Source of the DNA: a virus
DNA: 64,000 nucleotides
IMG/VR virus record: IMGVR_UViG_3300024520_000060
Location: 1-64,000 of that record
Strand: one strand, 5' to 3'
The position numbers and the translations under genes were made by a program. The notes below the pieces were generated by a model. The model did no database searches. It saw only the letters and a list, made by a program, of their open reading frames with translations, and had not been told where the DNA came from. Shown piece after piece: positions 39,250-63,634 of this stretch (the first letter of the stretch is position 1; the number at the start of each line of letters is the position of its first letter).

Positions 39250-39353
39250 GAGAAGATGCACCAGCAGAGGGCGTAGAAAGGGACAACGTAGAGAATGGCA
39301 TACACCATCCCGACGAAGAAGGAAGAGGGTTCAGTAGCGGTGGATTGTGTCAT
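39246..39353 (-). CDS. 35-aa membrane peptide
   Basis: Begins MTQSTATEPSSFF within the end of the kinase gene and consists mainly of the segment VGMVYAILYVVPFYALCWCI. Its TGA overlaps the ATG of the holin-like gene (ATGA). The overlap on both sides and the hydrophobic content support a real small gene, perhaps part of the lysis group. Confidence 0.55.
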   Translation of the reverse strand: MTQSTATEPSSFFVGMVYAILYVVPFYALCWCIFS

Positions 39354-39927
39354 TGAACGAGATCAGTCCTAGCTCTTTGGCGAACAGGGTTCCGCCATCG
39401 TTGTCAACGTCGAACGTCGGGATGTCCAGCTCAATGTACGACCGGCTATCTGCCGAGAAATCGTACCCTTCCCGGGTGATCCTGACTAGAGAACAATTGG
39501 CTTTCCCATAGGCAGCCACGAGTGACTCTGCCTCTTCCACGAACCCGCTGTCCGTGATGATGTGTGTCCACCTGGCTCTCATGTGCTGCTCATGCTTCCT
39601 GAGCTTCGCCACAAGGAGTTCTCCGAGGAAACCCTGGCCGTGGGTAGGCTTCATCCAGGATTCGCTCACGGCGATGTACGCGTCTCTGGGGGAGATACCG
39701 TGAAACTCCTCCAGGGGGTTGTCCTTGACCTGCTCGAAGTAGTCGTGACCGAGCGGATGCCCACCCTGGTCAAAGAGGAGGTAGAGGGCGTGGGTCCGCT
39801 CCTTCAGGATGGCCGACAGCTTGGCCATGTTGGTCAGACCAAGGTCCTTCCGTTGGGCCAGCACCATCCCGGCGAAGTCCTTCCCCGAGCGGGGAGGGCC
39901 GTTCACGAAGATCAGACGATGGTTCAC
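39331..39927 (-). CDS. P-loop kinase, dNMP-kinase-like
   Basis: 198 residues. NGPPRSGKDFAG (about 9-20) is the GxxxxGKD P-loop of phage deoxynucleoside monophosphate kinases, where D replaces S/T. HIITDSGFVEEAESLVAAYG (about 132) and LVRITREGYDF fit the later sheet and sensor region. It may phosphorylate dNMPs, including modified ones such as hmdUMP. It lies next to a MazG-like gene, forming a small nucleotide-metabolism pair. Confidence 0.72.
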   Translation of the reverse strand: MNHRLIFVNGPPRSGKDFAGMVLAQRKDLGLTNMAKLSAILKERTHALYLLFDQGGHPLGHDYFEQVKDNPLEEFHGISPRDAYIAVSESWMKPTHGQGFLGELLVAKLRKHEQHMRARWTHIITDSGFVEEAESLVAAYGKANCSLVRITREGYDFSADSRSYIELDIPTFDVDNDGGTLFAKELGLISFNDTIHRY

Positions 39928-39958: not shown

Positions 39959-40450
39959 TCATCTCAGACCTTGCTTGTACTTGTAGAGGACTTCAGCTGC
40001 GTCGGGCTTCTGCCAGCCTTCAGGCTTCAGAGGCTTGGATCGCGGGCCAGCAGCCACCTTCGCCATGTTCGCACGCTGTACATCACGCCAGAACGGCATG
40101 AGGGGTAGGCCCAGCGCGACGAGAGTACCCACCACAACGTAGATGACGTCGACGGCTTCCGAGGCGATCTTGGCCAGGTTGCGACCCATGATGGCCTCGC
40201 AGAGTTCCTCGCACTCCTCACGGATCAGCTCACACCGGAAGACCAGCATGCCATGGTAGGGAGTGTCATTGGGTGTCGTCGGGGCCGGGTGGCCAAACTT
40301 CAGATGGAAGTCACTGACGTCCTCGTAGATCCCGTGCTCCAGCCCCTCTGCCGCGTCGGCACACTCGTGGAGGAGCTGGGAGTTTGAGATGCGCTGCGAA
40401 CTTCGACTCAGTTCGCGGAGAGTCTTGGATAGCTTCATCGGCTGGGTCAT
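39959..40450 (-). CDS. MazG/HisE-like NTP pyrophosphohydrolase
   Basis: 163 residues. CELIREECEELCEAIMGRN, then KIASEAVDVIYVVVGTLVALG reproduces the EExxE...ExxD metal-binding pattern of all-alpha NTP pyrophosphohydrolases. The later LMPFWRDVQRANMAK and KPEGWQKPD ending is typical of phage members. Such enzymes can remove selected dNTPs, for example dTTP where thymine is replaced. Starts 4 bases before the end of the upstream exported-protein gene. Confidence 0.78.
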   Translation of the reverse strand: MTQPMKLSKTLRELSRSSQRISNSQLLHECADAAEGLEHGIYEDVSDFHLKFGHPAPTTPNDTPYHGMLVFRCELIREECEELCEAIMGRNLAKIASEAVDVIYVVVGTLVALGLPLMPFWRDVQRANMAKVAAGPRSKPLKPEGWQKPDAAEVLYKYKQGLR

Positions 40451-43965: not shown

Positions 43966-44003
43966 GCCTCACCCTACCCCCGGATCCGGCCCGGGGCTAA
44001 TCT
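43966..44003 (-). promoter_or_regulatory. Leaderless-type promoter cassette 21 (minus strand)
   Basis: Reading leftward: TTAGCC instead of GTAGCC (44000-43995), 18 bp with CCCCGG/CCGGGG arms, TAGGGT (43976-43971), GAGGC, ATG at 43965. Confidence 0.7.
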
Positions 44004-44566
44004 TTCTCTGACCAAATCTGGTCGATCAGGCCCCACTCCAGAGCCTGTTCGGCACCGAAGTATCGATCGGTGCTCGCCTTGCTGAGTCGCGACCAGTGCC
44101 TGTAGGGCATGTCAGTGTACTTGGCGAGTAGCCTGTCCATCCGCTCACACCGTCGCTTGATTGCCGCCATGGTGCCGTCCACGTTCGCCATCTGACCGTC
44201 GAGTTCTACGCTCGCTGTGTGCAGCATGAACTCGCAGTTCTCGCTGGCGTACCGCTCGCCGCGACTCCCACAGGCCACGAGGAAGGGAGCTGCCGACATG
44301 CACATCCCGAGCGCTGTGGTGCGGACCGGCACCCTGATGGTACGGGTCACATCGTGGAGGGCGAACGTCTCGTCGATATCCCCACCGTAGCTGGCGATGA
44401 AGAGGTCAATCGGTGAGTCACCATCGTCCGCCATGAGGTACATGCCTCGGATGGCCGTCGCGATGGTGTCAGACTCTACGTCACCCTGGAGGAAAATCCT
44501 CCGACCTCGGACGTCGATGCCGTACTCTAGAGCAGCCTCCAGGTTGACCTTGAACGCGTCGGTCAT
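43997..44566 (-). CDS. ClpP-like serine protease
   Basis: 189 residues with the ClpP fold. GMCMSAAPFLVAC (87-99) carries the nucleophile Ser91, EFMLHTASV (112-120) carries His116, and ASTDRYFGAEQALEWGLID places Asp167. All three catalytic residues are present. Such phage ClpP homologues may act in prohead maturation, but this gene lies among early or regulatory genes rather than next to the capsid, and the head protease of this phage is of another type. The N-terminal loop that docks Clp ATPases is short. A role in host protein turnover is possible. Confidence 0.8.
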   Translation of the reverse strand: MTDAFKVNLEAALEYGIDVRGRRIFLQGDVESDTIATAIRGMYLMADDGDSPIDLFIASYGGDIDETFALHDVTRTIRVPVRTTALGMCMSAAPFLVACGSRGERYASENCEFMLHTASVELDGQMANVDGTMAAIKRRCERMDRLLAKYTDMPYRHWSRLSKASTDRYFGAEQALEWGLIDQIWSEKD

Positions 44567-47351: not shown

Positions 47352-48374
47352 CTAGACACTGGCGAGCGCGACCTTCATGGCCATGGCCTTGTCGCGGCTG
47401 CTCGCTCCGAAGATGTTGTTGCCGACCCGAGCATCAGACTCGTCGATGCCCCCGAAGTTGCCGCGATCGTGGTCGTGGAACTCGGTGACCGCATTGAGTG
47501 CCGCCCATGCGGTGCCCTGGATGCCGCGAATCTTCTGACGCTCGTTGCAGAGGTTGACTTCCCACTGCTCGATGAGGTTAGTACGCTTCAGCGTGAGACG
47601 CTCGAGGATCTCTGCCGAGACTTGGAGCGGTTCCGGGAGGGTACCGTAGGTTGCATCGTAGATGCTCTCGAGGAGCTTGTGAGTTCCCTCAGCGGTCAGC
47701 TTCTTGCCCACCAGGGCAGTGACCTTCTCCTGGAACTTCTCGGCCTGACCGATGGCGAGCCCAAGCACCGTCTGGGCTTGCTTGATCTTGTTCTCGAAGT
47801 TGCCGGTGTGCTGGAACTTGATGCCGCCAGCGTTCTGCTCAGACCACGCCAAGGTGTTCGCGCAGCAGACGCGGATGGCCGTGTCGTAGCAGGCTGCCGC
47901 AGCCGTGCCGCCGTGGCCGTTCTGGACCAGGATGTACTGCTCGAGCACATCGTCGGCCGAGGCCCGGATGATACCGGGCAGCTTGACCAGGACGAACACC
48001 CGACGGCTGTCGTAGAGCGAGCCAGCCGTCTCAACCGTGACCGCCGCATCCTGACCAGCGAGGGCGTCAGCGAAGGCAGCGACGTCCTTGTTCTGGAAGG
48101 GAGTGTAGCTCTCAGTGACGAGGCCGAGCAGCTGACTGGTGTCGCTGCGGAGGTGTGCCCGGTAGGGGTTCTTCCCGGCGAGCGGGACTTGGGTGCCGTT
48201 CGCCATGGTGGCGGTGAGCGGAGCGAGCTCGGTGTCCCAGTCAAGGCCGATGAAGGGGAATGCCTCCTGAGCGGAGAGACCTTCTTCGATCTCGCTACCC
48301 AGACCGTGCCATGCACGCTGCCCGTTCTTCCTGACTTCGCCGTACCTGTCCGTTCCCATGATCATGTGAGCCAT
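47352..48374 (-). CDS. DUF932 phage/plasmid protein
   Basis: 340 residues from the ATG at 48374. RAWHGLGSEIEEGLSAQEAF, RSDTSQLLGLVTESYTPFQN and ETAGSLYDSRRVFVLVKLPG, then VQNGHGGTAAAACYDTAIRVCCANTL match the DUF932/TIGR03299 family of phage and plasmid proteins. Their biochemical role is not established; they are often highly expressed in infected cells. The gene has its own promoter with a true 5' leader and Shine-Dalgarno, and a strong terminator. Confidence 0.85.
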   Translation of the reverse strand: MAHMIMGTDRYGEVRKNGQRAWHGLGSEIEEGLSAQEAFPFIGLDWDTELAPLTATMANGTQVPLAGKNPYRAHLRSDTSQLLGLVTESYTPFQNKDVAAFADALAGQDAAVTVETAGSLYDSRRVFVLVKLPGIIRASADDVLEQYILVQNGHGGTAAAACYDTAIRVCCANTLAWSEQNAGGIKFQHTGNFENKIKQAQTVLGLAIGQAEKFQEKVTALVGKKLTAEGTHKLLESIYDATYGTLPEPLQVSAEILERLTLKRTNLIEQWEVNLCNERQKIRGIQGTAWAALNAVTEFHDHDRGNFGGIDESDARVGNNIFGASSRDKAMAMKVALASV

Positions 48375-48448
48375 TGTTCTTTTCTCCGTGAAAGGTGTTT
48401 GCTTCAGACGCAAACAGTGTACCCGGCCCTGCCCGAGAAGGCTACTTT
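48375..48448 (-). promoter_or_regulatory. Cassette 24: promoter with a leader and 5' hairpin
   Basis: AAAGTAGCC (48448-48440), 18 bp, TACACT (48421-48416). Unlike other copies the gene start is about 42 bases downstream. The leader begins with a hairpin GTTTGC/GCAAAC with a 7-base loop and has ACGGAG before the ATG. Confidence 0.75.
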
Positions 48449-53928: not shown

Positions 53929-54317
53929 GGGACGAGTTCTTTGCGGAGGGTTGCGGCGGAGGTCCAAACAACGATTGAGGCTTCCTTGAGTTCAGCTTGC
54001 GTTGCTTCACCAATAAGTCTAGCGGCCACCCCACCAGAAAGCAACAAGTAGTCCCGTGAAACCTGAAGAAGAACCAGGGCAACTCCGCCCTTTTCCTCCC
54101 TACGAGTCAGCCAGATCCGTTGTTCAATTGTGAGGTCGTGCCCGAGCACGAGCGGTGTCTCCGGCTTTTTGGGCCAGCTGTCATGCTGTTTGAGTTCAAT
54201 CCAGCCCCCGGTGTAATTGACATCGGGAGTGCCTCGGCCACAGCCATTTTCAACCCGAACCCCATCAAGTGGCTTGAGTGCTTTCATGACATGACCGGCG
54301 AGTGCTTTCTCACTCAT
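53907..54317 (-). CDS. PD-(D/E)XK nuclease, Holliday-junction-resolvase-like
   Basis: 136 residues from the ATG at 54317. GCGRGTPDVNYTGGWIELKQHD (about 25-46) holds PD followed by E-x-K, the PD-(D/E)XK catalytic core, and LTIEQRIWLTRREEKGGVAL is the helix that usually follows. Such small nucleases in phages resolve or trim replication intermediates. It overlaps the deaminase gene by 4 bases (ATGA). Confidence 0.75.
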   Translation of the reverse strand: MSEKALAGHVMKALKPLDGVRVENGCGRGTPDVNYTGGWIELKQHDSWPKKPETPLVLGHDLTIEQRIWLTRREEKGGVALVLLQVSRDYLLLSGGVAARLIGEATQAELKEASIVVWTSAATLRKELVPCLHHLS

Positions 54318-54832
54318 CGGATGAGCACATCCACACCGGCAGAGTCGAACATCTGACTGGCGGTGTCGTGGGCCACCTTCCACTTTGCACTCGTGGGGGC
54401 GTAGGTCACCACTCGGGCAATCCCCGACTGGATGATGGCCTTGGCGCACTCGTTGCAGGGGTAGAGGGAGGAGTAGAGGGTGGCACCTTCCAGGGAGGTA
54501 GGCACCCCGGTGTTCAGGATGGCGTTCATCTCAGCGTGTACCGTCATGCTGAGCTTGGCGTCCCGCTTCGCCAGGGTGGCCGGGTCATCCGGGAGTCCCC
54601 GTGGGAAGCCATTGTAGCCTACAGAAAGGACCCTACGCTTCGCGTCGACAATGACTGACCCTACCTTGGTGGAGGGGTCCTTGGACCAGGTAGCGACGAG
54701 CTGAGCGAGCTCGAGGAACCGCCCATCCCAGTCCACAGCTCGGGGTCCGGGGTGGAGTTCGTAGGGGAGGAAGGGGTGGCATGCCCGGAAGTGGTTTTCC
54801 ACAGGGCTGCCGCATATCTTGCACACGATCAT
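54314..54832 (-). CDS. dCMP deaminase
   Basis: 172 residues from the ATG at 54832. TVHAEMNAIL (HAE at 99-101) and YPCNECAKAI (125-129) are the zinc and catalytic motifs of dCMP deaminases. TKVGSVIVDAKRRVLSVGYNGFPRG is the usual substrate-loop region. The N-terminal CKIC...HFRACH may bind a second zinc. It converts dCMP to dUMP and so feeds the thymidylate-synthase-type enzyme. A longer in-frame extension to 55129 overlaps another small gene and is not adopted. Confidence 0.88.
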   Translation of the reverse strand: MIVCKICGSPVENHFRACHPFLPYELHPGPRAVDWDGRFLELAQLVATWSKDPSTKVGSVIVDAKRRVLSVGYNGFPRGLPDDPATLAKRDAKLSMTVHAEMNAILNTGVPTSLEGATLYSSLYPCNECAKAIIQSGIARVVTYAPTSAKWKVAHDTASQMFDSAGVDVLIR

Positions 54833-54954
54833 ATGTTCACTCGTCTCACACTGATGTCCGGTCGGTCCTTCATGCGGTTGAACACTGTGTCCCTCCGCTC
54901 CTCGGCCTGACTGTAGCTGCGGAACAGTGACCACTGTTCCCCCGGGAGGCCGCA
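54829..54954 (-). pseudogene. Second half of a basic small protein after an in-frame TGA
   Basis: In the same frame as the 49-aa gene upstream, after its TGA, the sequence continues as GLPGEQWSLFRSYSQAEERR, DTVFNRMKDRPDISVRRVNI and ends at TGA over the deaminase ATG. No start codon fits before the later Met. It reads as real coding sequence split from its start by one stop codon. Confidence 0.5.
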
Positions 54955-55104
54955 TCACGGGGACTCCGGAGTCCCCGGTTGGTAGAATCCAGGCTTCTGT
55001 CGCCAGAAGATCGCGTAGGTCATCGGGATCTGATGCTGGCTCGCCCAGTCCGACAGCTGCTGCATCTGCTTCTTGGCCTTGCGGCTCTTCTTCCTTTTGC
55101 TCAT
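54955..55104 (-). CDS. Basic small protein (49 aa)
   Basis: MSKRKKSRKAKKQMQQLSDW, then ASQHQIPMTYAIFWRQKPGF, ending PGTPESP before TGA. Very basic N-terminus and a hydrophobic-aromatic centre. It begins downstream of the polymerase stop. The same frame continues with protein-like sequence after the TGA, so the true product may be about 91 residues with the stop either recent, suppressed or an assembly error. Function unknown. Confidence 0.55.
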   Translation of the reverse strand: MSKRKKSRKAKKQMQQLSDWASQHQIPMTYAIFWRQKPGFYQPGTPESP

Positions 55105-55125
55105 CGTACCATTGCCAGTATTCGC

Positions 55126-57102
55126 TCATCTCTTTGCCCAATCCGGTTCGGCTATGTCGCCCCAATTGGGGCCAGTCTCAATGTCCACCTTGGCCGGGAC
55201 ACTCATCGGCAACGCTGCTTCCATGATCTCACGGCAGAGCAGTGATTCTTCGGGGCTCCAGATCGTGTGGGTCAACTCGTCATGAACCTGGAGCTGGAGC
55301 CGGATGCCTGCCTCGTCGGCATTCACCATAGCCTCCCGGGTCTGGTCGCCCGAGCTACCCTGGACCGCACGGTTGCCAGCCTTGTGGGCATCCTCGTACT
55401 CCCATCGTCGCTTCTCCGCGTTCCAGATCTTCTTGAACCGGCAGCGCCGACCACCTTTGGTGATGATGTAGCCCCGCTGCTTGGCCTTCTTCTCGGCAGC
55501 CTTCATCAGTAGCTTCACGAACGGGACGCCGGTCCGGAACCTGTCCAGCAGGGCCTGGGCTTCCTCCCCTGCCCCGAGATACTTGATCAGCTCGCCATCG
55601 TCGTTGGTGAACTCTTTCCATGCCGTCGGGAGGCCCAGGGAACGAGCCAGCTTGCCGGGGCCCATGCCGTAGGACAAACCGAGGAAGATCACCTTGGCTG
55701 CACCTCGCTCCTCCTTGGCTATCTTCCCCTTCAGGTTGGGCCAGTTCGGGTTGATCAGGGTGGCCATCATGTCGTGGTTGTCCGCTGTAGGATCGTTCCT
55801 GTAGCGTTCCGCCATCTCGAAGGCCCGGGGTAGGCGAAGCTGTTCCGCATAGGCTACAGCGCACCGTGGCTCCTGTTGGGAGTAGTCATGGACCGCCATC
55901 TGCCCACCCTCGTCAGCGATGTAGATGGAGCGCCACATAGGGCCGATCTCCGGGTCCCGAGCGGGTTGCTGCTGGAGGTTCGGATCCTTGCATGCCAGCC
56001 GCCCGTACCGTGCGCCGGAGTCATCGCCGTCAGCACTGTCAGACTCTCCGATCATCTGCTTGAAGGTGCAGTGGATGCGGTCGCCAATCGCGTGGGTCCT
56101 GATGGACTTGACGAAGGTGTTCCGCAGCTTGTTGAACTTCTTGGCCACCAGGATCTCCCGGGCAACATCGTTGTCCAGGGTACGGAGCCAGTCATTCTTG
56201 ACTGAGTTCTGACCGCTCGGGAACTTGGTGGTGGGTGCAGTCTGGGGGATGGTCAACCCCTGGGCGAGTAGCAGTGGAACCAGGGCTGCAGTCTTCGTGG
56301 TATCTGACAGGTCCAGACCGATGCCAGTCATGTGGGTCAGCTTGGCCAGGGCGGAGGTCTCCCGACCGATGGACCATTCCTCGATCTCGGCGAGCCGTTC
56401 GAAGTCGACGCGGATACCCCGGCGTCGCATCTTCAGCAGGACAGGGAGCAGCCGGGACTCCATGTCCCAGACAGCCTCCAGCCCTTGGTCGTAGATCTCA
56501 CGCTCTTGGCGGCGAAGCAGCTGCATGGGCAATCGGCAGTCCTGCTCCGCATAGGCCCCCACGTGCTCAGGAGGCAGCTCCCACATCCCCTTCTTCGGGT
56601 CTACTCCCCAGGCTGCCGCAGCGGCACGCATGTGGGTCTCGTCCTTGCCCGGGATACCTCTCCGCTCGGCAATAGCGTCCAGACCGTAGCTGTATTGAAG
56701 CTCGTCAAGGAGGGGCTCCGCTACTCCGATGTCCTTGTGCCGTCGGGGCCGGAAGGAGACTCCGTTCTCCTCGCAGTAGTCCAGATCGTACGGAAGGTTG
56801 GCCCCGCAGAGGTCTCCTTTGAACACCTTCGCCTGGTCCCGGATGTAGTTCCACACCTGAACAGGGTCTAGGTTGACACCGTTGGCGTGGCGGATAGGGA
56901 GGTAGGCAGCGGGCCCGTCCTCAATCGCGAAGCCCACACCAATGACGTAGCCGTCACGGCGGACCCCGGGGCCGAGCTTCGTGAGTTGCGGGTCCCGGGT
57001 TTCCAGGTCCACACATACTCTCTTGGCCTCAGCCCAGGAGGGGAGACTTCCAAGCTGGGGAGGGGTCCAGCCTGATCGCGGGGTGAAGGGCGGAAGGTTC
57101 AC
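55126..57102 (-). CDS. DNA polymerase, family A with 3'-5' exonuclease
   Basis: 658 residues. Exonuclease: VDLET (D32, E34), ANLPYDLDY (D106) and YAEQDC (Y184, D188) are intact, so it proofreads. Polymerase: HDYSQQEPR motif A (D406), motif B ERGAAKVIFLGLSYG (R466, K470, Y478), and QVHDEL motif C. The residue equal to E. coli Phe762 is Leu474; the position after DYSQ is Gln instead of Ile. There is no 5' nuclease domain. It is the replicative polymerase of the phage, acting with the primase-helicase and SSB. Confidence 0.92.
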   Translation of the reverse strand: MNLPPFTPRSGWTPPQLGSLPSWAEAKRVCVDLETRDPQLTKLGPGVRRDGYVIGVGFAIEDGPAAYLPIRHANGVNLDPVQVWNYIRDQAKVFKGDLCGANLPYDLDYCEENGVSFRPRRHKDIGVAEPLLDELQYSYGLDAIAERRGIPGKDETHMRAAAAAWGVDPKKGMWELPPEHVGAYAEQDCRLPMQLLRRQEREIYDQGLEAVWDMESRLLPVLLKMRRRGIRVDFERLAEIEEWSIGRETSALAKLTHMTGIGLDLSDTTKTAALVPLLLAQGLTIPQTAPTTKFPSGQNSVKNDWLRTLDNDVAREILVAKKFNKLRNTFVKSIRTHAIGDRIHCTFKQMIGESDSADGDDSGARYGRLACKDPNLQQQPARDPEIGPMWRSIYIADEGGQMAVHDYSQQEPRCAVAYAEQLRLPRAFEMAERYRNDPTADNHDMMATLINPNWPNLKGKIAKEERGAAKVIFLGLSYGMGPGKLARSLGLPTAWKEFTNDDGELIKYLGAGEEAQALLDRFRTGVPFVKLLMKAAEKKAKQRGYIITKGGRRCRFKKIWNAEKRRWEYEDAHKAGNRAVQGSSGDQTREAMVNADEAGIRLQLQVHDELTHTIWSPEESLLCREIMEAALPMSVPAKVDIETGPNWGDIAEPDWAKR

Positions 57103-57476
57103 TCGGAGGGTTCGTCGTAGCAGGTGCCGAGGAAATTGGTCGAACTACGCTGGGACTCCTGCTGGTGGATCTCGCCCTCCACCAGCAGGAGGTAGCGGCG
57201 CATGTCACCGATGTCGTCGAGGATACCTTCTTCTCGACCATCCAGCACCGCTCGTTTGATGATGTCGTACTTGTCGATGGCGGGGTATCCCTCCGCGCTC
57301 TTGTCCTCCATCACTCGCTCCATCGCCGTCTCCAGGCGATCCCACTTGCGGGCGAGCATCATGAATGCGCCCACCCCACCACGCTTGAGCCAGCTGCCTC
57401 CGTACTCCATGTCCTTCAGGTGAAGGACAGCGACGTCATGGTTGGCGATGTTTTCGATTCGGCCGATGTAACTCAT
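57099..57476 (-). CDS. Small conserved-type phage protein, unknown (125 aa)
   Basis: MSYIGRIENIANHDVAVLHL, then KDMEYGGSWLKRGGVGAFMM and LARKWDRLETAMERVMEDK. The K..YG.SW..RGG.GAF.ML.RKWDRLE pattern recalls phage proteins linked to nucleotide metabolism (DUF1599/Nmad1-like), but I am not certain. It lies between the HD nucleotidase and the polymerase and overlaps both by 4 bases. Confidence 0.6.
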   Translation of the reverse strand: MSYIGRIENIANHDVAVLHLKDMEYGGSWLKRGGVGAFMMLARKWDRLETAMERVMEDKSAEGYPAIDKYDIIKRAVLDGREEGILDDIGDMRRYLLLVEGEIHQQESQRSSTNFLGTCYDEPSE

Positions 57477-57994
57477 TTCGGGAGGACGTCAGGCGTCCGT
57501 GTCCATTCGTGGGTGGTGATGAAGTCCTGAACAGGCTTCGGGATGCGGTTGATGTTGGCCTTGAACCAGGCCAGAAGGTTGCCGAGGCAGGTTGCCACGT
57601 TCTGGTTTCCCATCGCGAGCTGGTCCTTTGCCCAGAGAAGGAGTTCCAGCTTGTCGCAAGCGTCGAGCCACTCCCAGTTTTCAGAACTGAGGATCATGTC
57701 GTAGCCCAGGTGGGCTAGGCACTGCTTCTCCATCGCTCCGATGCGTTTCGCGAACTCACCGTCAGACCACTTGGTCGGGGCAGGAACGTCACCACACCAG
57801 CGCTCGCCAAGGTCGTGAGTCATCATGGCCTTGACCAGGTTCATGCTGGGGTCAGGGTGTAGAGTGAACAGCAACATGGTGGCTGCGTACTGGTGGGCTC
57901 CGTTGGAGTAGGACCCGTGGTGGGGCAGGGTATGGGCCCGCTCCACAGCGGCACCCTCCCTGAGTTTCGTTACGAGGTCGACGATGTCGCGCAT
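57473..57994 (-). CDS. HD-domain 5'-deoxynucleotidase (YfbR-like)
   Basis: 173 residues from the ATG at 57994. SNGAHQYAATMLLF, then KAMMTHDLGERWCGDVPAPTKW follows the YfbR pattern, in which HDLxEx..GDx..P carries the metal-binding HD and substrate specificity. The later CDKLELLLWAKDQLAMGN holds the last Asp. YfbR removes phosphate from dNMPs; here it could remove dTMP and help exclude normal thymine. The gene overlaps the thymidylate-synthase-family gene by about 25 bases. Confidence 0.78.
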   Translation of the reverse strand: MRDIVDLVTKLREGAAVERAHTLPHHGSYSNGAHQYAATMLLFTLHPDPSMNLVKAMMTHDLGERWCGDVPAPTKWSDGEFAKRIGAMEKQCLAHLGYDMILSSENWEWLDACDKLELLLWAKDQLAMGNQNVATCLGNLLAWFKANINRIPKPVQDFITTHEWTRTPDVLPK

Positions 57995-58995
57995 TTGGCT
58001 TGTCTCCGAAGCAGCCACTCCTGACATGCGATGGCCCAGTCATGGGAGGCACACTGGCCCACATGCTGGAAGGCGCGGTCGAAGCGGTCAGGGGTCTTGC
58101 TCTTGAAGGCCCCATAGGCCAGATAGAGCGGGACCGCGACTTGGGTGAAGAAGGGGTCAACGTATGTCCCTGCGTCGCGGAGCAGGAAGAACGTGTCCAG
58201 TTCCCGGTCCCAGCGACCCCGAGGGATCGACATGAGCGGGACGATGTTGCCGATGTCACCCGTGGAGTAGGGGCACGTGTACTGCTCGGGAGGCTGCGGA
58301 GCCTTGTCCGCCAGGGTCTCCACGAGCTTCTGGTGCGGCTCGGTGTAGAAGTGCGTGTTGAAGGAGGTCTGATAGTACATCCCCACCTCCCGGCCAAGGC
58401 CGAGGGCGATGTACTCCTGGAGGAAGCTGAAGTGAACAGCATTCGCACCGTAGGCCCCCCAGATCAGGTCGTTGCTCCGGTTGGTGACCATCATCTGCAG
58501 CTTGCCGTCCAGGTCAACCTGGAAGTAGGCTTGCGTGTTGCAGGGGAGGTCTCGGCTCTGGAGGCCGAGGTCGTGGCGCGGATCCCACATCCCTAGCACT
58601 TGGCGGCGACACTCGGGATTCGCATCCAGAGCCTTGATGATGACATCAAGCTGATCGGTGCCGAAGTGCCTACGCCAGCGGTTGCCATAGGCAGCGTTGA
58701 AGGTCTGGCTGTCGTCGCTGTAGTTGTGCATCCCGGAGTTGAAGAAGCTGACGAACTCCACATCGTTGTCGCCGTGGAGCATCCACAGCGACTCGAACAG
58801 GTGGAAGAACGGGTTGGCGTCCCGCTCGGGATGGAAGATGACCCGCTCCGTCGGCCGCATGTACGCCGTGGTCAGGGGTACGGGAAGCACCTTGACCGGG
58901 CCGTTTCGGCTGGCGGTCTCCACACCAAAGTTGAGCAGCTGGAAGCAGCCTTCGGGAAGGGCCTGGTGCACGTTTCGGACGACGATTGTTCTCAT
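57970..58995 (-). CDS. Thymidylate-synthase-family enzyme (TS or dUMP hydroxymethylase)
   Basis: 341 residues from the ATG at 58995. SRDLPCNTQAYFQV carries the catalytic Cys152; the residue after Pro-Cys is Asn instead of the usual His. Then come NRSNDLIWGAYGANAVHFS (the RS.D...G...N substrate loop, N185 kept) and FNTHFYTEPHQ. The WDPR block near 137 is also typical. The C-terminus lacks the terminal Pro-Val or Ala-Val of true TS. Depending on the cofactor step it makes dTMP or hmdUMP. Its neighbour is an aGPT-Pplase-type protein, which favours hydroxymethylation. Confidence 0.78.
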   Translation of the reverse strand: MRTIVVRNVHQALPEGCFQLLNFGVETASRNGPVKVLPVPLTTAYMRPTERVIFHPERDANPFFHLFESLWMLHGDNDVEFVSFFNSGMHNYSDDSQTFNAAYGNRWRRHFGTDQLDVIIKALDANPECRRQVLGMWDPRHDLGLQSRDLPCNTQAYFQVDLDGKLQMMVTNRSNDLIWGAYGANAVHFSFLQEYIALGLGREVGMYYQTSFNTHFYTEPHQKLVETLADKAPQPPEQYTCPYSTGDIGNIVPLMSIPRGRWDRELDTFFLLRDAGTYVDPFFTQVAVPLYLAYGAFKSKTPDRFDRAFQHVGQCASHDWAIACQEWLLRRQAKCATSSTS

Positions 58996-59861
58996 GACGG
59001 AAAATACCTTCTCTTCAGACGTTGGCCACCCTGGGCACGACGCCACTTGTCGTACTCGCAGAGGGAGTGCTCGGCTTCGCGCATCTCCCAGGGCCGGTCA
59101 GGGTATGCCCACAGACCGTGCTTGGGTGTGGACAGTTGGACGAGTTGCTGCATGGTGGACATGGAGAGGGCGACGCCCTTGGCTGAACCATACCCCACCC
59201 TGTCACGGCAGCCGTGATGGAGCCAGGAAGTTCCCCGGGCAGCACCGGGCCCGGGGGAGGCCCAGGTGTTGATGTCCACAGCATTCTCAAGGATGTGCGT
59301 GTGGCGCAGGTCAGTGACGATTTCGTAGGCCAGGAACGGTCCCAGGAGCCATGTCTCGCACACGATCCTGTGAGCCTGCTCAAGGAACTTTGTTTCCTCT
59401 TCGGCCCCGTAGTCGGCCAGGTTCTCCGCAGTCTGCCTGGCTCCTTCGACGAGCTCGAGCACTCCCGTGAGCTTGTCCTTCCCAGCGGGGGTGCGAATCA
59501 TGTAGGCCCCGGTGCATGTTCGGCCTCCTGCGTTCACGTGCGGTCTGAGAGTTTTCTCCGCCCACGCGCTGTCCCACTCCCCGGTCCGCATCATGGGCAG
59601 CAGGAGTTCGCCAACCTCGATACGGTTGAACCAGCGGAAGGCGAGGGTCATGAGGGCCACGGAGCGCTCGTCTCGGAGCGGGTCCCGCACGTTCTCCCGG
59701 AACCAACGAGTGGTCTTGTCGTCCTCCCGGAAGACGTTGCAGAAGCGGAACTCGCTCAGGACAGGGTCTTTGGTCCAGGGGCCCGGGGCTCCGGACTCCT
59801 TCTTGATGCGGGTGGCTTCGCGCTCGTTGACGAACCCGAAGAACTGTTCAGTCTCGATCAT
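58992..59861 (-). CDS. aGPT-Pplase / 5-hmdU DNA kinase helical-domain family protein
   Basis: 289 residues. The N-terminus FFGFVNEREATRIKKESGAP, then GPWTKDPVLSEFRFCNVFRE and DDKTTRWFRENVRD. This matches the ER..R.....GxPxPWTxDPxLxxxRFxNVxRExDxxTxW block described for alpha-glutamyl/putrescinyl thymine pyrophosphorylases and the helical domain of 5-hydroxymethyl-dU DNA kinases (Pfam families around PF18723/PF18746). These act on thymine-type bases in phage DNA after replication. It overlaps the thymidylate-synthase-family gene by four bases. Confidence 0.75.
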   Translation of the reverse strand: MIETEQFFGFVNEREATRIKKESGAPGPWTKDPVLSEFRFCNVFREDDKTTRWFRENVRDPLRDERSVALMTLAFRWFNRIEVGELLLPMMRTGEWDSAWAEKTLRPHVNAGGRTCTGAYMIRTPAGKDKLTGVLELVEGARQTAENLADYGAEEETKFLEQAHRIVCETWLLGPFLAYEIVTDLRHTHILENAVDINTWASPGPGAARGTSWLHHGCRDRVGYGSAKGVALSMSTMQQLVQLSTPKHGLWAYPDRPWEMREAEHSLCEYDKWRRAQGGQRLKRRYFPS

Positions 59862-60022
59862 GCGGGGATCCTCTTGACAAGCTGGAGGTAGAAAGGGCCG
59901 ATCCGGAAGACGGCAGCATCGTACGTCAGGTCGTCAGTTTCATAGGCGATGCCCACGTACCAACGGCGAAGTCCACATCCTACGATTGCCTGGAAGTCCT
60001 CCGAGTCGTAGAGGACCTTCAT
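59858..60022 (-). CDS. Small protein next to the modification genes, unknown (54 aa)
   Basis: MKVLYDSEDFQAIVGCGLRR, then VGIAYETDDLTYDAAVFRIG: beta-type, acidic-aromatic. Its TGA overlaps the ATG of the aGPT-Pplase-type gene (ATGATC). It is too short for the other gene calls but fully open, with an overlap on both sides. Function unknown. Confidence 0.6.
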   Translation of the reverse strand: MKVLYDSEDFQAIVGCGLRRWYVGIAYETDDLTYDAAVFRIGPFYLQLVKRIPA

Positions 60023-60411
60023 CGTCCACCCGCGTTCCGGACCTCAGCCACCGTGGGCCGCAGGATGGTGCTGACCTTGGGCCGAATGACGAGGACGCTG
60101 ACATCGGTCATGGCCGGGACAGGTTCCTTGGACTCGATCATGAGAGCGGTATGGAGGCCGGTGAACGAGCGCTGGAGCGGATCGTGACACATCTCCAGGA
60201 GTAGGGCGGGAACGTGACCGAGGGGCCCACCCCACTTGTCCAGCACTTCGGCGAAGGTGATGTCCTGGCCGTTGCGGTCCACGAGCTTGATCTCCTCGCC
60301 GGGTCCACCTTCCGAGGTCTTCACCTCCTTGGCGGTCTCGATACCGGAGACGACGAGCGTGACATTGTTGCCAACCAAGTTGACGGGATTGTTGATCGTG
60401 AAGGTTCTCAT
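60019..60411 (-). CDS. Protein in the modification operon, unknown (130 aa)
   Basis: MRTFTINNPVNLVGNNVTLV, beta-rich, with IKLVDRNGQDITFAEVLDKW and ALMIESKEPVPAMTDVSVLV. It starts 4 bases before the end of the next gene and overlaps the small gene at 59858. Possibly an accessory of DNA modification or a host-interaction protein. Confidence 0.62.
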   Translation of the reverse strand: MRTFTINNPVNLVGNNVTLVVSGIETAKEVKTSEGGPGEEIKLVDRNGQDITFAEVLDKWGGPLGHVPALLLEMCHDPLQRSFTGLHTALMIESKEPVPAMTDVSVLVIRPKVSTILRPTVAEVRNAGGR

Positions 60412-60683
60412 GTGGTAGCCCAGTCGAAGGTGGGGCGAACTTCGCCCGGGGATATGTTGAGTTGAATCGGACCGCTCTTGGTGGACATACAGCCCTGGTC
60501 TGTCCACCTGCGGATGCAGGAGTAGCCAACGAACAGGTCCACTTGGTTAGGGTAGAGGCCCAACGCTAGAAAGTCTGCCCTAGATTGCACGAGAAAGCAA
60601 GTGGGACATTGGAATTTCCACTGATTGGGATCCTTCCCGAACAGGGCAATCGCTCGGTCCTGCCAATGCGCGAGTGCGGTCAC
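60408..60683 (-). CDS. VVA0879-type zinc protein (91 aa)
   Basis: Start taken as GTG at 60683, overlapping the stop of the upstream gene (GTGA), giving M/V-T-A-L-A-H-W-Q-D-R-A. The segment ALFGKDPNQWKFQCPTCFLV, then GYSCIRRW is the HW...A..LFG.DP..W.F.CP.C...SC..RW pattern of phage proteins called VVA0879 family. The CPTC and later Cys bind zinc. Function in phages is not established. Confidence 0.66.
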   Translation of the reverse strand: MTALAHWQDRAIALFGKDPNQWKFQCPTCFLVQSRADFLALGLYPNQVDLFVGYSCIRRWTDQGCMSTKSGPIQLNISPGEVRPTFDWATT

Positions 60684-60832
60684 GAGGTGAGACCCAGCCA
60701 CATGATGTAGATCAGGTAGAGGACGAGCGAGATGCGGAGCACCTTGATCCCGAACCGCCATCGTTTCCGCACACGGGCGATCCTTTGCTGTTGGGCCCGC
60801 ATGTTTTCCCATCCGTCACCAAACTGCTTCAC
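60680..60832 (-). CDS. 50-aa membrane protein
   Basis: A GTG start overlapping the stop of the previous gene gives M/V-K-Q-F-G-D-G-W-E. A basic stretch (QQQRIARVRKRWRFG) and one hydrophobic segment (VLRISLVLYLIYIMWLGL) follow. Type with positive cytoplasmic N-terminus. Function unknown. Confidence 0.55.
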   Translation of the reverse strand: MKQFGDGWENMRAQQQRIARVRKRWRFGIKVLRISLVLYLIYIMWLGLTS

Positions 60833-61263
60833 AGCTTTTCTACCCCGACTTGTCCTGAGGACGTAACAGTGATGCGGACATCATGACCGAAGACGGAGTG
60901 CATGACATCGTTAGGGATGGACCTGAAGTCATAGATCGCACAGTCGTAGGTCCGGCGATGATCGGCGGACAGCTGGTCAGGCTTGGCCCAGCCCATGCCC
61001 AGGGTACCAACCATCTTGGCGGCGAACGCTTCGGTCTGTCGGTGGGCTATGGTGTCTCGCTCGACCATAACCAAGGGCTGGCGGTGTAGGCTGACGAAGC
61101 ACCCCCCAATCATCTCCTGAGTCCAGCTGAGTCCCATGATCCCCGAGTGCCGAGCGAACATGGGCTGGAGGACTTCCTGGACAGCAGTCTGCCCAACCCG
61201 AGCGAGCCGGATCTGGGCCTGGGCCTGGGTGTTCAGGAAGGCAGTGATAGCCGGGTGCATCAT
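60829..61263 (-). CDS. Protein in the modification operon, unknown (144 aa)
   Basis: MMHPAITAFLNTQAQAQIRL, then MIGGCFVSLHRQPLVMVERD, and YDFRSIPNDVMHSVFGHDVR near the end. Some His and Asp residues are clustered but give no known metal motif. Four-base overlap with both neighbours. Function unknown. Confidence 0.64.
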   Translation of the reverse strand: MMHPAITAFLNTQAQAQIRLARVGQTAVQEVLQPMFARHSGIMGLSWTQEMIGGCFVSLHRQPLVMVERDTIAHRQTEAFAAKMVGTLGMGWAKPDQLSADHRRTYDCAIYDFRSIPNDVMHSVFGHDVRITVTSSGQVGVEKL

Positions 61264-61493
61264 CTGAGCACGAACTCCCAGCTGGTCGTCATGGTGTCGC
61301 CTTCGCGAATCACGGTCTCGACCAGCTTGTACTTGCTGGCCTCCTCAGACCCTGTCTCCATCAGGAAGGCCCCGGCGAACATCTCGATGTACTGCGCCCG
61401 CTCCTGCTTCAGCTTGTCCAGGTGGGCCCGCATCTCGGGACTCCCGGGAGCCTGGGCCGGGTTGGGCGAAACGTGAAGGTCGTCGGGATTCAT
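61260..61493 (-). CDS. Small protein, unknown (77 aa)
   Basis: MNPDDLHVSPNPAQAPGSPE, then MRAHLDKLKQERAQYIEMFA: disordered start and a helix. Coupled to its neighbours by 4-base overlaps. Function unknown. Confidence 0.62.
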   Translation of the reverse strand: MNPDDLHVSPNPAQAPGSPEMRAHLDKLKQERAQYIEMFAGAFLMETGSEEASKYKLVETVIREGDTMTTSWEFVLR

Positions 61494-61675
61494 GACAGGA
61501 TCTTCTTGGTACAGTACTCGAGGCCGACAGTGACGGTCGTGATGATCGCCATGGCAAGAGGTGCCCAGAGCGGGGCGGTCACCCAGATCCAGTTCCAGTT
61601 GATCACGCCGGTCAGCTTCAGGACGAGGAAGGTGAGGAACAGGAATGCGTTGAGCTTGTTGTCTGTGTCTTTCAT
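61490..61675 (-). CDS. 61-aa protein with two membrane segments
   Basis: MKDTDNKLNAFLFLTFLVLK, then LTGVINWNWIWVTAPLWAPL and AMAIITTVTVGLEYCTKKIL. Two hydrophobic segments around a Trp-rich loop, like small holin or membrane-stress proteins. Four-base overlap with the glycosyltransferase gene. Function unknown. Confidence 0.64.
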   Translation of the reverse strand: MKDTDNKLNAFLFLTFLVLKLTGVINWNWIWVTAPLWAPLAMAIITTVTVGLEYCTKKILS

Positions 61676-62433
61676 GACTTCACCTGCGAGGAGGCGAACG
61701 CCTTCTTCCAGTAGACCGTGACCTCGGTACGAGTACCGAACTCGCCACCGGCCTTGTTCTCCTTCTGGCGGAGACGGACGAACTCGGGGTGAAGCTCATG
61801 CAGCTTCTTCGCCGCACGCTCGTGGTTCTCGTGGGTCCGGTAGTCCGAGCAGCCACCAGCCATCTGGGTCTGGACCTGCCCTTGGGCCCAACGGGTGAGG
61901 ATACCGCTGGGCAGTCCTCGCTCGAGGAGCTGGAGCGCCACATCGAAGTCCTCCATCACCTGGACCCGGGTGAAGTCAACGTCAGCCGGAACCATGTCCG
62001 CGTTGATCCCGAGTGCCCGGATGTACCGCTGGTTCTCGAGGATGTCACCCAACCCCTTGAACCTGTTGAAACCTTCACGAGCAGCGATGCCCACGTGGGC
62101 GTAGTCGTCCAGAGCATCCTCGACGGCCTCAAGGAGGTTGACCATGTCCCGCTCACTGGCGTTGACCAGCTTGCCCTCGTCGTCTTCCCGACGAGTGTAG
62201 AACCAGAGGTCGTCGTCGAGCATCAGGATCTTGCCGCCGACATCGCGAACGCAGTACTCCCGGACACCAGCGATGCCACACACGCCCTCAGGGAGCACGT
62301 GAAGGTCCGCGTCAGGGTAGGCCGCACGGTAGTCCGCCGCCTGGCTGTAGTCCACAAGGAGTGTGGCGTTCGGGAGGTCACGGAAGATCCGGACTTTGCC
62401 GGCACGACTGAGGGTGGGTACGAGAATCTTCAT
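61672..62433 (-). CDS. Glycosyltransferase of TET-associated (TAGT) type
   Basis: 253 residues from the ATG at 62433. MKILVPTLSRAGKVRIFRDL, then GVCGIAGVREYCV and KILMLDDDLWFYTRR (DDD at 73-75) match the MKIxVPxxxR...GI...R...ILMLDDDL pattern of TET-associated glycosyltransferases (PF20691), which transfer sugars to oxidised or hydroxymethylated bases in phage DNA. The middle is helical with a large helical insert. It lies in the operon with the aGPT-Pplase-type and thymidylate-synthase-type genes, which fits glycosylation of hydroxymethyluracil. Confidence 0.7.
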   Translation of the reverse strand: MKILVPTLSRAGKVRIFRDLPNATLLVDYSQAADYRAAYPDADLHVLPEGVCGIAGVREYCVRDVGGKILMLDDDLWFYTRREDDEGKLVNASERDMVNLLEAVEDALDDYAHVGIAAREGFNRFKGLGDILENQRYIRALGINADMVPADVDFTRVQVMEDFDVALQLLERGLPSGILTRWAQGQVQTQMAGGCSDYRTHENHERAAKKLHELHPEFVRLRQKENKAGGEFGTRTEVTVYWKKAFASSQVKS

Positions 62434-62440
62434 CAGGGGT

Positions 62441-63634
62441 CTAGCCTTGCGGGTAGGTGTCAGGATTGACAGGTTGGCGATCTTCGACGAATGGCTTGGC
62501 AGCCTGGACGTTCCACGTGTTGGCACTGTGACGCCCAAAGAATGTTACCTCACCGTTGGGGAGGCCGTTGTGTTTCAGCTCGAATCCTGTTCCTGGTGCG
62601 TGGAGGAACATGAACGCTCGGTCGCCGTTCTTGATGTTCAACTTCTCCACAGAGTTGAACGCACACACGGGACGATCACCGTTGGGGAAGATGCCGATGT
62701 TCTCCTTCCAGATCATGCGGGACACCGCGAAGCCTTCAGTGTTCAGGAACCCCGGGCCTTCCACGATCCATGGCTTGTAGTTCTTGGTCGTCTGGTGCTG
62801 CTTGACGTCCCGGTACACCACAGACAGGCCGGTCGCATACTCGGACTCGCCGTAGTTGCGCGCCATGCGCACGAACCCATTGGGCCAGCCAGCGACCGTG
62901 TAATTGTAGGCCCCGTCCTGGCCACAGTTGTAGGCCGAGTTGCCTTCGATGATCAAGTTGCCTGTCGCCGCCTGGGGGTTCAGCATGTTCCCGGACCACC
63001 ATCGTGTGACCACCTGGGTATGCGTCCGCTTCCACTTGGCCGCACGATTGTTCAGGATGTATGCGTTCTGCTTCGGGTTGTTGATGTAGATGAAGTGCTC
63101 TTGCCCGCCACCCATTCCGGAGCAGCCATCGAACACGATCTCCTCTGTCTGACCATGGATGCGGTAGCCCCACTTGGTCCTGGCATCGGACAGCATCCGG
63201 ACGTTGTGGAACTCCAGGACACCGAGGTAGTTGTCCATATAGCCCAGGACACCTACCTGGCTGCCTCGTGCATCGATAGTGACATCGGTGAATACGACCC
63301 GACCAATGCCTCCCCCTTCGCTGGAGATGCCAATCGAGCCGAGGACCGAGTGGTCGTCTGCGCCAGTGATCGCTACATCAAAGGGAGCGGTCCGCACGGC
63401 CTGGTTCTTGCCAGCACCGTTGCCTACCGAGAGGTCCAGATGCGGCATCCTGCCGTGTACCTGGATGATGTCCCCAGGGTGGCTGCGAATCAGAGCGAAC
63501 GCCAGAGGGTTCTTTTGCCCTGTCTGATGTGTCTGTCCCGAAGCATGCTCGATAGCTTGCCCCGGGAAGACGTCCCAGTCGGGTTGGGATTGTTGCGGCA
63601 GAATTGCCAGTAGAAGAATCGCGAAGAAGTCCAT
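62441..63634 (-). CDS. Secreted or surface beta-helix protein
   Basis: 397 residues. MDFFAILLLAILPQQSQPDW begins with a hydrophobic segment like a signal peptide. The rest has right-handed beta-helix character (GGIGRVVFTDVTIDARGSQV, GVLEFHNVRMLSDART, NLIIEGNSAYNCGQDG, ENIGIFPNGDRPVCAF), as in pectate-lyase or tailspike folds. It may be a depolymerase or an envelope protein. It lies far from the tail genes and would be exported, which is unusual. No catalytic residues can be assigned. Confidence 0.62.
   Translation of the reverse strand: MDFFAILLLAILPQQSQPDWDVFPGQAIEHASGQTHQTGQKNPLAFALIRSHPGDIIQVHGRMPHLDLSVGNGAGKNQAVRTAPFDVAITGADDHSVLGSIGISSEGGGIGRVVFTDVTIDARGSQVGVLGYMDNYLGVLEFHNVRMLSDARTKWGYRIHGQTEEIVFDGCSGMGGGQEHFIYINNPKQNAYILNNRAAKWKRTHTQVVTRWWSGNMLNPQAATGNLIIEGNSAYNCGQDGAYNYTVAGWPNGFVRMARNYGESEYATGLSVVYRDVKQHQTTKNYKPWIVEGPGFLNTEGFAVSRMIWKENIGIFPNGDRPVCAFNSVEKLNIKNGDRAFMFLHAPGTGFELKHNGLPNGEVTFFGRHSANTWNVQAAKPFVEDRQPVNPDTYPQG

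Follow-up and report, generated by a model that had tools for sequence, protein, structure and literature searches.

Phage SPO1 DNA carries undecorated 5-hydroxymethyldeoxyuridine (hmdU), and M6, ViI and PhiW-14 are hypermodified phages. Base J, the glucosyl form of hmdU in DNA, is made by JBP oxygenases acting on thymine together with JGT. In the thymidine hypermodification loci of the Pseudomonas phages M6, YuA and PaMx11 (Mesyanzhinovviridae), genes for a helical protein (Pfam PF18723), a deoxyuridine monophosphate (dUMP) hydroxymethylase of the thymidylate synthase (TS) family, an HD phosphohydrolase, a family A DNA polymerase and a deoxycytidine monophosphate (dCMP) deaminase follow in order. 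Upstream of the helical gene lie an amino acid:DNA transferase, a P-loop 5-hmdU DNA kinase and tailoring enzymes (pyridoxal phosphate (PLP), radical S-adenosylmethionine (SAM), or flavin adenine dinucleotide (FAD) and acetyltransferase). Here we analyze a locus with the same module order in a 64,000-base stretch of viral DNA (the window), bases 1-64000 of the 69,996-base IMG/VR record IMGVR_UViG_3300024520_000060, from a virus of bacteria related to these phages. It differs from them in having no detectable 5-hmdU DNA kinase, amino acid:DNA transferase or tailoring genes and in carrying instead a TET-associated glycosyltransferase (TAGT). To judge by its genes, this virus probably replaces thymine with hydroxymethyluracil (hmU) and then glycosylates it, giving a base-J-like glycosyl-hydroxymethyluracil through predicted enzyme activities and a predicted order of steps. 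Unlike in base J, synthesis of hmdU would take place at nucleotide level, with glycosylation by the TAGT to follow.

The TAGTs of T-even and TET phages (PF20691, phrog_842) share their family, GT-A fold and DxD-type motif with the window protein, but modify hydroxymethylcytosine in DNA, or its glucoside (PMC13390438, PMC13216743), whereas the window hydroxymethylase is of uracil type and no TET enzyme was detected. Co-location of TAGT with TS and helical-type genes is not wholly new, because pelagiphage clade II clusters were noted in 2022 to hold a TAGT-like gene, a 5'-deoxynucleotidase, TS and aG/PT-PPlase1 in one region (PMC9599517); the available part of that paper contains no specificity, partner-exchange or fold analysis. 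The cultured Brevibacterium phage LuckyBarnes also has a uracil-type hydroxymethylase, a TAGT and a helical protein in one run without kinase or transferase, although it is an unrelated phage with two TAGTs; the literature searched held no report of its DNA chemistry. That literature, which did not cover the main pathway papers, likewise yielded no description of partner exchange or of a phage with glycosylated hmdU. The parts are thus ordinary and the combination looks unreported.

A putative uracil-type hydroxymethylase

A previous sequence-only reading of the window had pointed to a TS-family gene with an unusual Pro-Cys-Asn active site. The family assignment stands and the motif is present (LPCNTQ), but it is not unusual. 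When the window protein is aligned with reference enzymes, Asn falls at the position that reads the base and the catalytic cysteine sits in Pro-Cys-Asn, an arrangement shared by the dUMP hydroxymethylases of SPO1, M6, YuA and PhiW-14; genuine TS has Pro-Cys-His, and the T4 dCMP hydroxymethylase (gp42) and MilA carry Asp together with a Cys-Thr motif. The alignment agrees with the earlier proposal of uracil rather than cytosine specificity. The protein is 55% identical to the YuA/MP1412 dUMP hydroxymethyltransferase and is encoded by the only TS-family gene in the record. Uracil-type Asn was found in 151/151 TS-like proteins at related loci, and the residue test discriminates, since two Microbacterium phages, YuuY and Lucky3, score as cytosine-type in it. 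The TS homologue is of the dUMP-hydroxymethylase type, with that activity predicted, and its active site places the presumed first step as conversion of dUMP to hydroxymethyl-dUMP.

A TAGT at the kinase and transferase position

The glycosyltransferase scores 67.8 bits against PF20691 (cut-off 27.5), and D73-D74-D75, a DxD-type motif, is invariant in 58 homologues. As sequence searches of the helical and TAGT proteins against the PDB returned spurious matches only, structure prediction was needed; AlphaFold input alignments held window and viral-contig rows only. The TAGT model (predicted local distance difference test (pLDDT) 95.0) matched uridine diphosphate (UDP)-sugar GT-A enzymes in Foldseek (prob 1.00, E 7.6e-6). 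Glycosylation of hmU is chemically feasible, since T4 beta-glucosyltransferase has been reported to add glucose to 5hmU in DNA under some conditions (PMC4111573).

Profile searches of the whole record found neither the 5-hmdU DNA kinase (PF18748) nor the amino acid:DNA transferase (PF18724), and tblastn was also negative for both. The same profiles detected the kinase in ViI, M6 and YuA, with a sub-threshold match in PaMx11, and the transferase in ViI, M6, YuA, PaMx11 (clearly) and PhiW-14. No radical SAM, PLP, FAD or acetyltransferase tailoring gene of the M6/YuA/PaMx11 kind was detected in the record by tblastn. A motif search revealed no small P-loop kinase open reading frame (ORF) near the operon, and the sole genuine Walker-A protein it returned is a Dda-like helicase. 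The corresponding stretch of the window holds the TAGT, a 397-residue protein of no known family and three small orphan ORFs. On gene content, the GT-A glycosyltransferase takes the place of the kinase and amino acid:DNA transferase. The earlier description of a TAGT without TET also agrees with our data, in that the record gave no match to the TET/JBP oxygenase profile PF12851, in a search whose control gave no match either.

Partner exchange across related loci

The combination of TAGT, helical protein and dUMP hydroxymethylase is not unique to the window, occurring in dozens of viral contigs and one cultured Brevibacterium phage. We used iterated profiles to scan 80 viral-contig loci chosen by TAGT similarity and 80 chosen by helical-protein similarity; because these were selected by similarity to the window, include near relatives that are not independent and are mostly 20-kb slices, the locus counts given below, and Fisher values computed from them, are descriptive. 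Among TAGT-selected loci, 69/80 carried the helical gene, 69/80 the hydroxymethylase and 0/80 the kinase; the 11 lacking a helical gene are without exception contigs of less than 11 kb. The partner at 155 helical-gene loci was a TAGT in 74, the kinase in 24, a Methyltransf_23 protein in 44, an FkbM-type methyltransferase in 8 (52 for the two methyltransferase families together) and a radical SAM protein in 4, with one left unclassed. Kinase and TAGT shared a locus in 0/155; one apparent case (L124/L125) was rejected, its "TAGT" scoring 16.5 bits against the 27.5 cut-off.

Helical gene and TAGT lie on the same strand in 73/73 loci and less than 150 bp apart in 51. TAGT and helical-gene distances correlate with the hydroxymethylase controlled for (partial r 0.48; 0/2000 permutations). 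A tree built from 89 helical proteins requires at least three changes of the TAGT label along well-supported branches. The sister of the window protein in this tree belongs to a cassette with kinase, transferase, FAD and acetyltransferase genes (Shimodaira-Hasegawa-like approximate likelihood ratio test (SH-aLRT) 96), so a swap of partner separates these close relatives. The alternation of kinase, TAGT and methyltransferase suggests that these are interchangeable tools with which viruses disguise their DNA.

At 44 loci (L134:9135-9998, L146:9117-9980 and 42 others) a gene for a Methyltransf_23-type SAM methyltransferase immediately precedes those for the helical protein and dUMP hydroxymethylase, and none of these loci has a kinase or TAGT, an arrangement that predicts methylated hmdU in these apparently marine phages. 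An FkbM-type methyltransferase adjoins the helical gene at five loci that also have a TAGT (L033, L036, L030, L035, L073), where it possibly methylates the sugar; eight further loci have it without TAGT (L100, L103, L107, L110, L111, L112, L166, L094).

The helical protein

The window helical protein matches PF18723 at 144.5 bits (cut-off 25) over profile positions 5-275 of 281. Its earlier label, aGPT-Pplase/hmdU-kinase-helical, holds for the family only: the protein has no P-loop, is not itself an hmdU kinase and is at most a putative pyrophosphorylase. Nor is it part of a 5-hmdU DNA kinase here, as PF18748 is neither fused nor adjacent to it in the record. The source of the Pfam name, HMUDK_hel, is explained by Bacillus phage Goe26, a SPO1 relative in which a single 636-residue protein (L201:5002-6912) fuses the PF18748 kinase and PF18723 helical domains; SPO1 itself has neither. 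Other apparent helical or TAGT fusions in viral contigs proved to be stop-to-stop ORF artefacts, leaving that of Goe26 as the only real one seen.

We found the helical protein in ViI, M6, YuA, PaMx11, PhiW-14 and LuckyBarnes, and not in SPO1, T4 or ctUhy936. With ctUhy936 as the exception, it appears to track base decoration rather than hmdU synthesis. Across all partner classes combined, 28 positions are at least 95% conserved, implying one common task. The AlphaFold model (pLDDT 95.9) has as its best PDB fold match 8z2m (prob 1.00, E 0.02, template modelling (TM) score 0.41), which is PaMx11 gp46, a 5-phosphomethyl-dU glycinyltransferase. Profile-profile comparison connects the helical family only weakly to the amino acid:DNA transferases (15% probability), so their homology would be a matter of fold. 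Tentatively, and at slightly less than even odds in our judgement, the helical protein presents or selects hmdU for its partner enzyme. It is similarly conceivable, if short of probable, that HMUDK_hel, with its glycosylase-like fold, is not a kinase part but serves generally to present hydroxymethyl-pyrimidine DNA, and that swapping its neighboring gene switches the modification. The exchangeable chemistries would then be kinase plus amino acid (M6), glycosyltransferase (the window phage) and two SAM methyltransferase families (marine phages), the last predicted to give O-methylated or otherwise methylated hmdU.

Proposed pathway and alternatives

In the route that we propose, dCMP deaminase would supply dUMP, the TS homologue would hydroxymethylate it to 5-hydroxymethyl-dUMP, and a deoxynucleoside monophosphate (dNMP) kinase with host kinases would carry this to the triphosphate. 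The HD and MazG-like enzymes would deplete the competing thymidine mono- and triphosphates (dTMP/dTTP), allowing the phage DNA polymerase to incorporate hmdU in place of T. After replication the TAGT would add a sugar, probably a hexose in a linkage likewise predicted, to the hydroxymethyl group. The helical protein, with its glycosylase-like fold of base-flipping type, would present or select hmdU, a service it would render to the kinase in M6/PaMx11-type phages. Glycosylated hydroxymethyluracil or a new base, as first suggested, is still the best reading of the likely product.

Several observations weigh against this proposal. The virus is uncultured, and its modified base is predicted from genes alone. 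No sugar-donor gene was found, so that host UDP-sugars must be assumed, and in this virus 1.7 kb and three unrelated ORFs separate the TAGT from the helical gene. In T2/T6 the TAGT adds its glucose to a sugar already present rather than to the base (PMC13216743), so family membership does not settle which acceptor is used. In ctUhy936 a TAGT, hydroxymethylase and HD gene occur with no helical protein detected, which implies that the helical protein is not always required. The cultured phages YuuY (L198) and Lucky3 (L199) encode a dCMP-hydroxymethylase-like enzyme together with a helical protein that has diverged, and YuuY also carries a TAGT; the helical protein is therefore not tied to uracil in all lineages, and its family seems to occur in hydroxymethylcytosine settings too. 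Finally, the fold matches of the helical protein score weakly, both 8z2m and the helix-hairpin-helix (HhH-GPD) DNA glycosylases that come next (E 0.26 and above), yet the matched folds are consistent in their base-flipping theme.

The helical protein could instead be an enzyme in its own right, making an activated or altered hmdU intermediate for the neighboring kinase, glycosyltransferase or methyltransferase. Its 28 conserved positions and its resemblance to a catalytic DNA-modifying transferase would suit such a role, but we know of no chemistry that joins one intermediate to all three partners, and we regard this as unlikely. A purified 5-HMUDK preparation phosphorylates hmU-DNA with ATP (PMC6457204, of which the available part does not state the subunit make-up), and the Goe26 fusion suits a subunit. 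It is decidedly less plausible that the DNA holds plain hmdU and the glycosyltransferase acts on a host surface, protein or capsid. Although phage glycosyltransferases often act on surfaces, and the sequence is compatible with non-DNA acceptors, the TAGT members whose role is known work on DNA, unrelated phages consistently keep the gene next to those for the hydroxymethylase and helical protein, and SPO1, with hmdU only, has no helical protein.

Very little probability attaches to amino-acid hypermodification of the M6/PaMx11 type, in which kinase and transferase would be too diverged to see and the glycosyltransferase an extra. Synteny of the remaining replication module with PaMx11 and YuA and a helical protein whose sister belongs to a kinase cassette speak for this alternative, but it is countered by profile searches negative over the whole record that succeeded in ViI, M6 and YuA (and, for the transferase, clearly in PaMx11), by the lack of a small P-loop kinase ORF near the operon, and by the absence of kinase and TAGT together from all 155 loci. 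Least probable of all is T-even-style decoration of hydroxymethylcytosine: that role gave PF20691 and phrog_842 their names and YuuY offers a cultured example of TAGT beside a cytosine-type enzyme, but the only TS-family gene in the record is of uracil type (Asn, PCN) and the dCMP deaminase diverts dCMP to dUMP.

Genome and gene content

The two ends of the record share 75 bp at 96% identity (window bases 1-75 and record 69922-69996), not exactly identical, and a helicase gene runs on across them; the record is thus effectively a complete circular genome of about 70 kb. Megablast against phages gave one match, TS at 72%, so synteny was compared at the protein level. The replication half shows synteny with PaMx11 and YuA: helicase, Dda-like helicase, ribonucleotide reductase, helical protein, TS-like protein, HD protein, DNA polymerase A, dCMP deaminase and primase all have counterparts there, with protein identities of about 25-60%. 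The helical gene, hydroxymethylase, HD, polymerase and deaminase are 33-55% identical to their counterparts, and with this synteny the gene set is not due to chance.

The four core genes (TAGT, helical, hydroxymethylase and HD) are all open and form one minus-strand run (Table 1); the hydroxymethylase ATG at 58995 overlaps the helical-gene stop (ATGA). Among PHROGs matches for operon genes, phrog_5131 is thymidylate synthase and phrog_842 beta-glucosyl-HMC-alpha-glucosyltransferase; phrog_2396 (7e-55) also appears. Most gene calls of the sequence-only reading hold up. Its dCMP deaminase, dNMP kinase and MazG-like genes are real, and both PF18723 and PF20691 match below the E-value of 1e-5 that it had proposed; PF18746, named alongside them, gave no match. 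The HD deoxynucleotidase call passes narrowly, at 26.0 bits against a PF12917 cut-off of 25.9, with its His-Asp pair at residue 71; HD orthologues come after the hydroxymethylase in PaMx11, YuA and M6.

Table 1. Features of the window, with profile E-values or other evidence
Feature	Position	Strand	Evidence
TAGT-family GT-A glycosyltransferase, 253 residues, candidate hmdU-DNA glycosyltransferase	61672..62433	-	PF20691 1.6e-18, phrog_842 6e-48
HMUDK_hel helical protein, 289 residues, candidate hmdU-DNA base-presenting subunit	58992..59861	-	PF18723 5.4e-42
dUMP hydroxymethylase (TS family), 341 residues, predicted	57970..58995	-	PF00303 4.2e-20, phrog_5131 2e-113
YfbR-like HD phosphohydrolase, 184 residues, candidate dTMP/dTTP-removing enzyme	57473..58027	-	PF12917 8.5e-6, phrog_6047 1.7e-47
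Small conserved protein, 125 residues	57099..57476	-	family in 74 related loci, mostly near hydroxymethylase
Family A DNA polymerase	55126..57102	-	PF00476 1.9e-46; 51% identity to PaMx11 gp55
dCMP deaminase ORF (homologous part 54326-54832)	54314..55165	-	PF00383 1.1e-24, phrog_174 2.9e-48
Deoxynucleoside monophosphate kinase, candidate hmdUMP kinase	39331..39927	-	phrog_139 1.7e-27
MazG/PRA-PH type nucleotide pyrophosphohydrolase	39959..40450	-	PF01503 1.3e-16, phrog_671 5.5e-24
Three small ORFs, 162/134/144 residues, between glycosyltransferase and helical gene	60019..61263	-	no Pfam/PHROGs family; no relatives among fetched loci
397-residue protein	62441-63634	-	no Pfam/PHROG match; no relatives among fetched loci
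GGDEF protein, 156 residues	43495-43965	-	RLGGDEF; PF00990 1e-15
ClpP-like protease	43997-44566		PF00574 1e-33
DUF932 protein	47352-48413	-	PF06067 9.5e-45

Directly upstream of the glycosyltransferase, the 397-residue protein occupies the position of the kinase/transferase cassettes in relatives; judged by eye, it may be a beta-helix. Elsewhere in the window, a phage protein with an intact GGDEF motif, possibly a diguanylate cyclase domain, adjoins the ClpP-like protease, and a DUF932 protein is also encoded.

Implications

If our proposal is right, phages have a route of their own, independent of that in kinetoplastids, to a sugared thymine substitute resembling base J, and the Pfam label "kinase helical domain", which phage annotations have already taken over, is misleading. 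Resistant sites in M6 and ViI favor TG/TC (PMC6449724). Partner alternation makes the selection of hmdU sites testable, by asking whether the helical protein sets a sequence preference for any partner enzyme. Together, these loci allow unreported DNA bases to be predicted from genes in both cultured and marine phages, which would be relevant to restriction, Cas evasion and enzymology.

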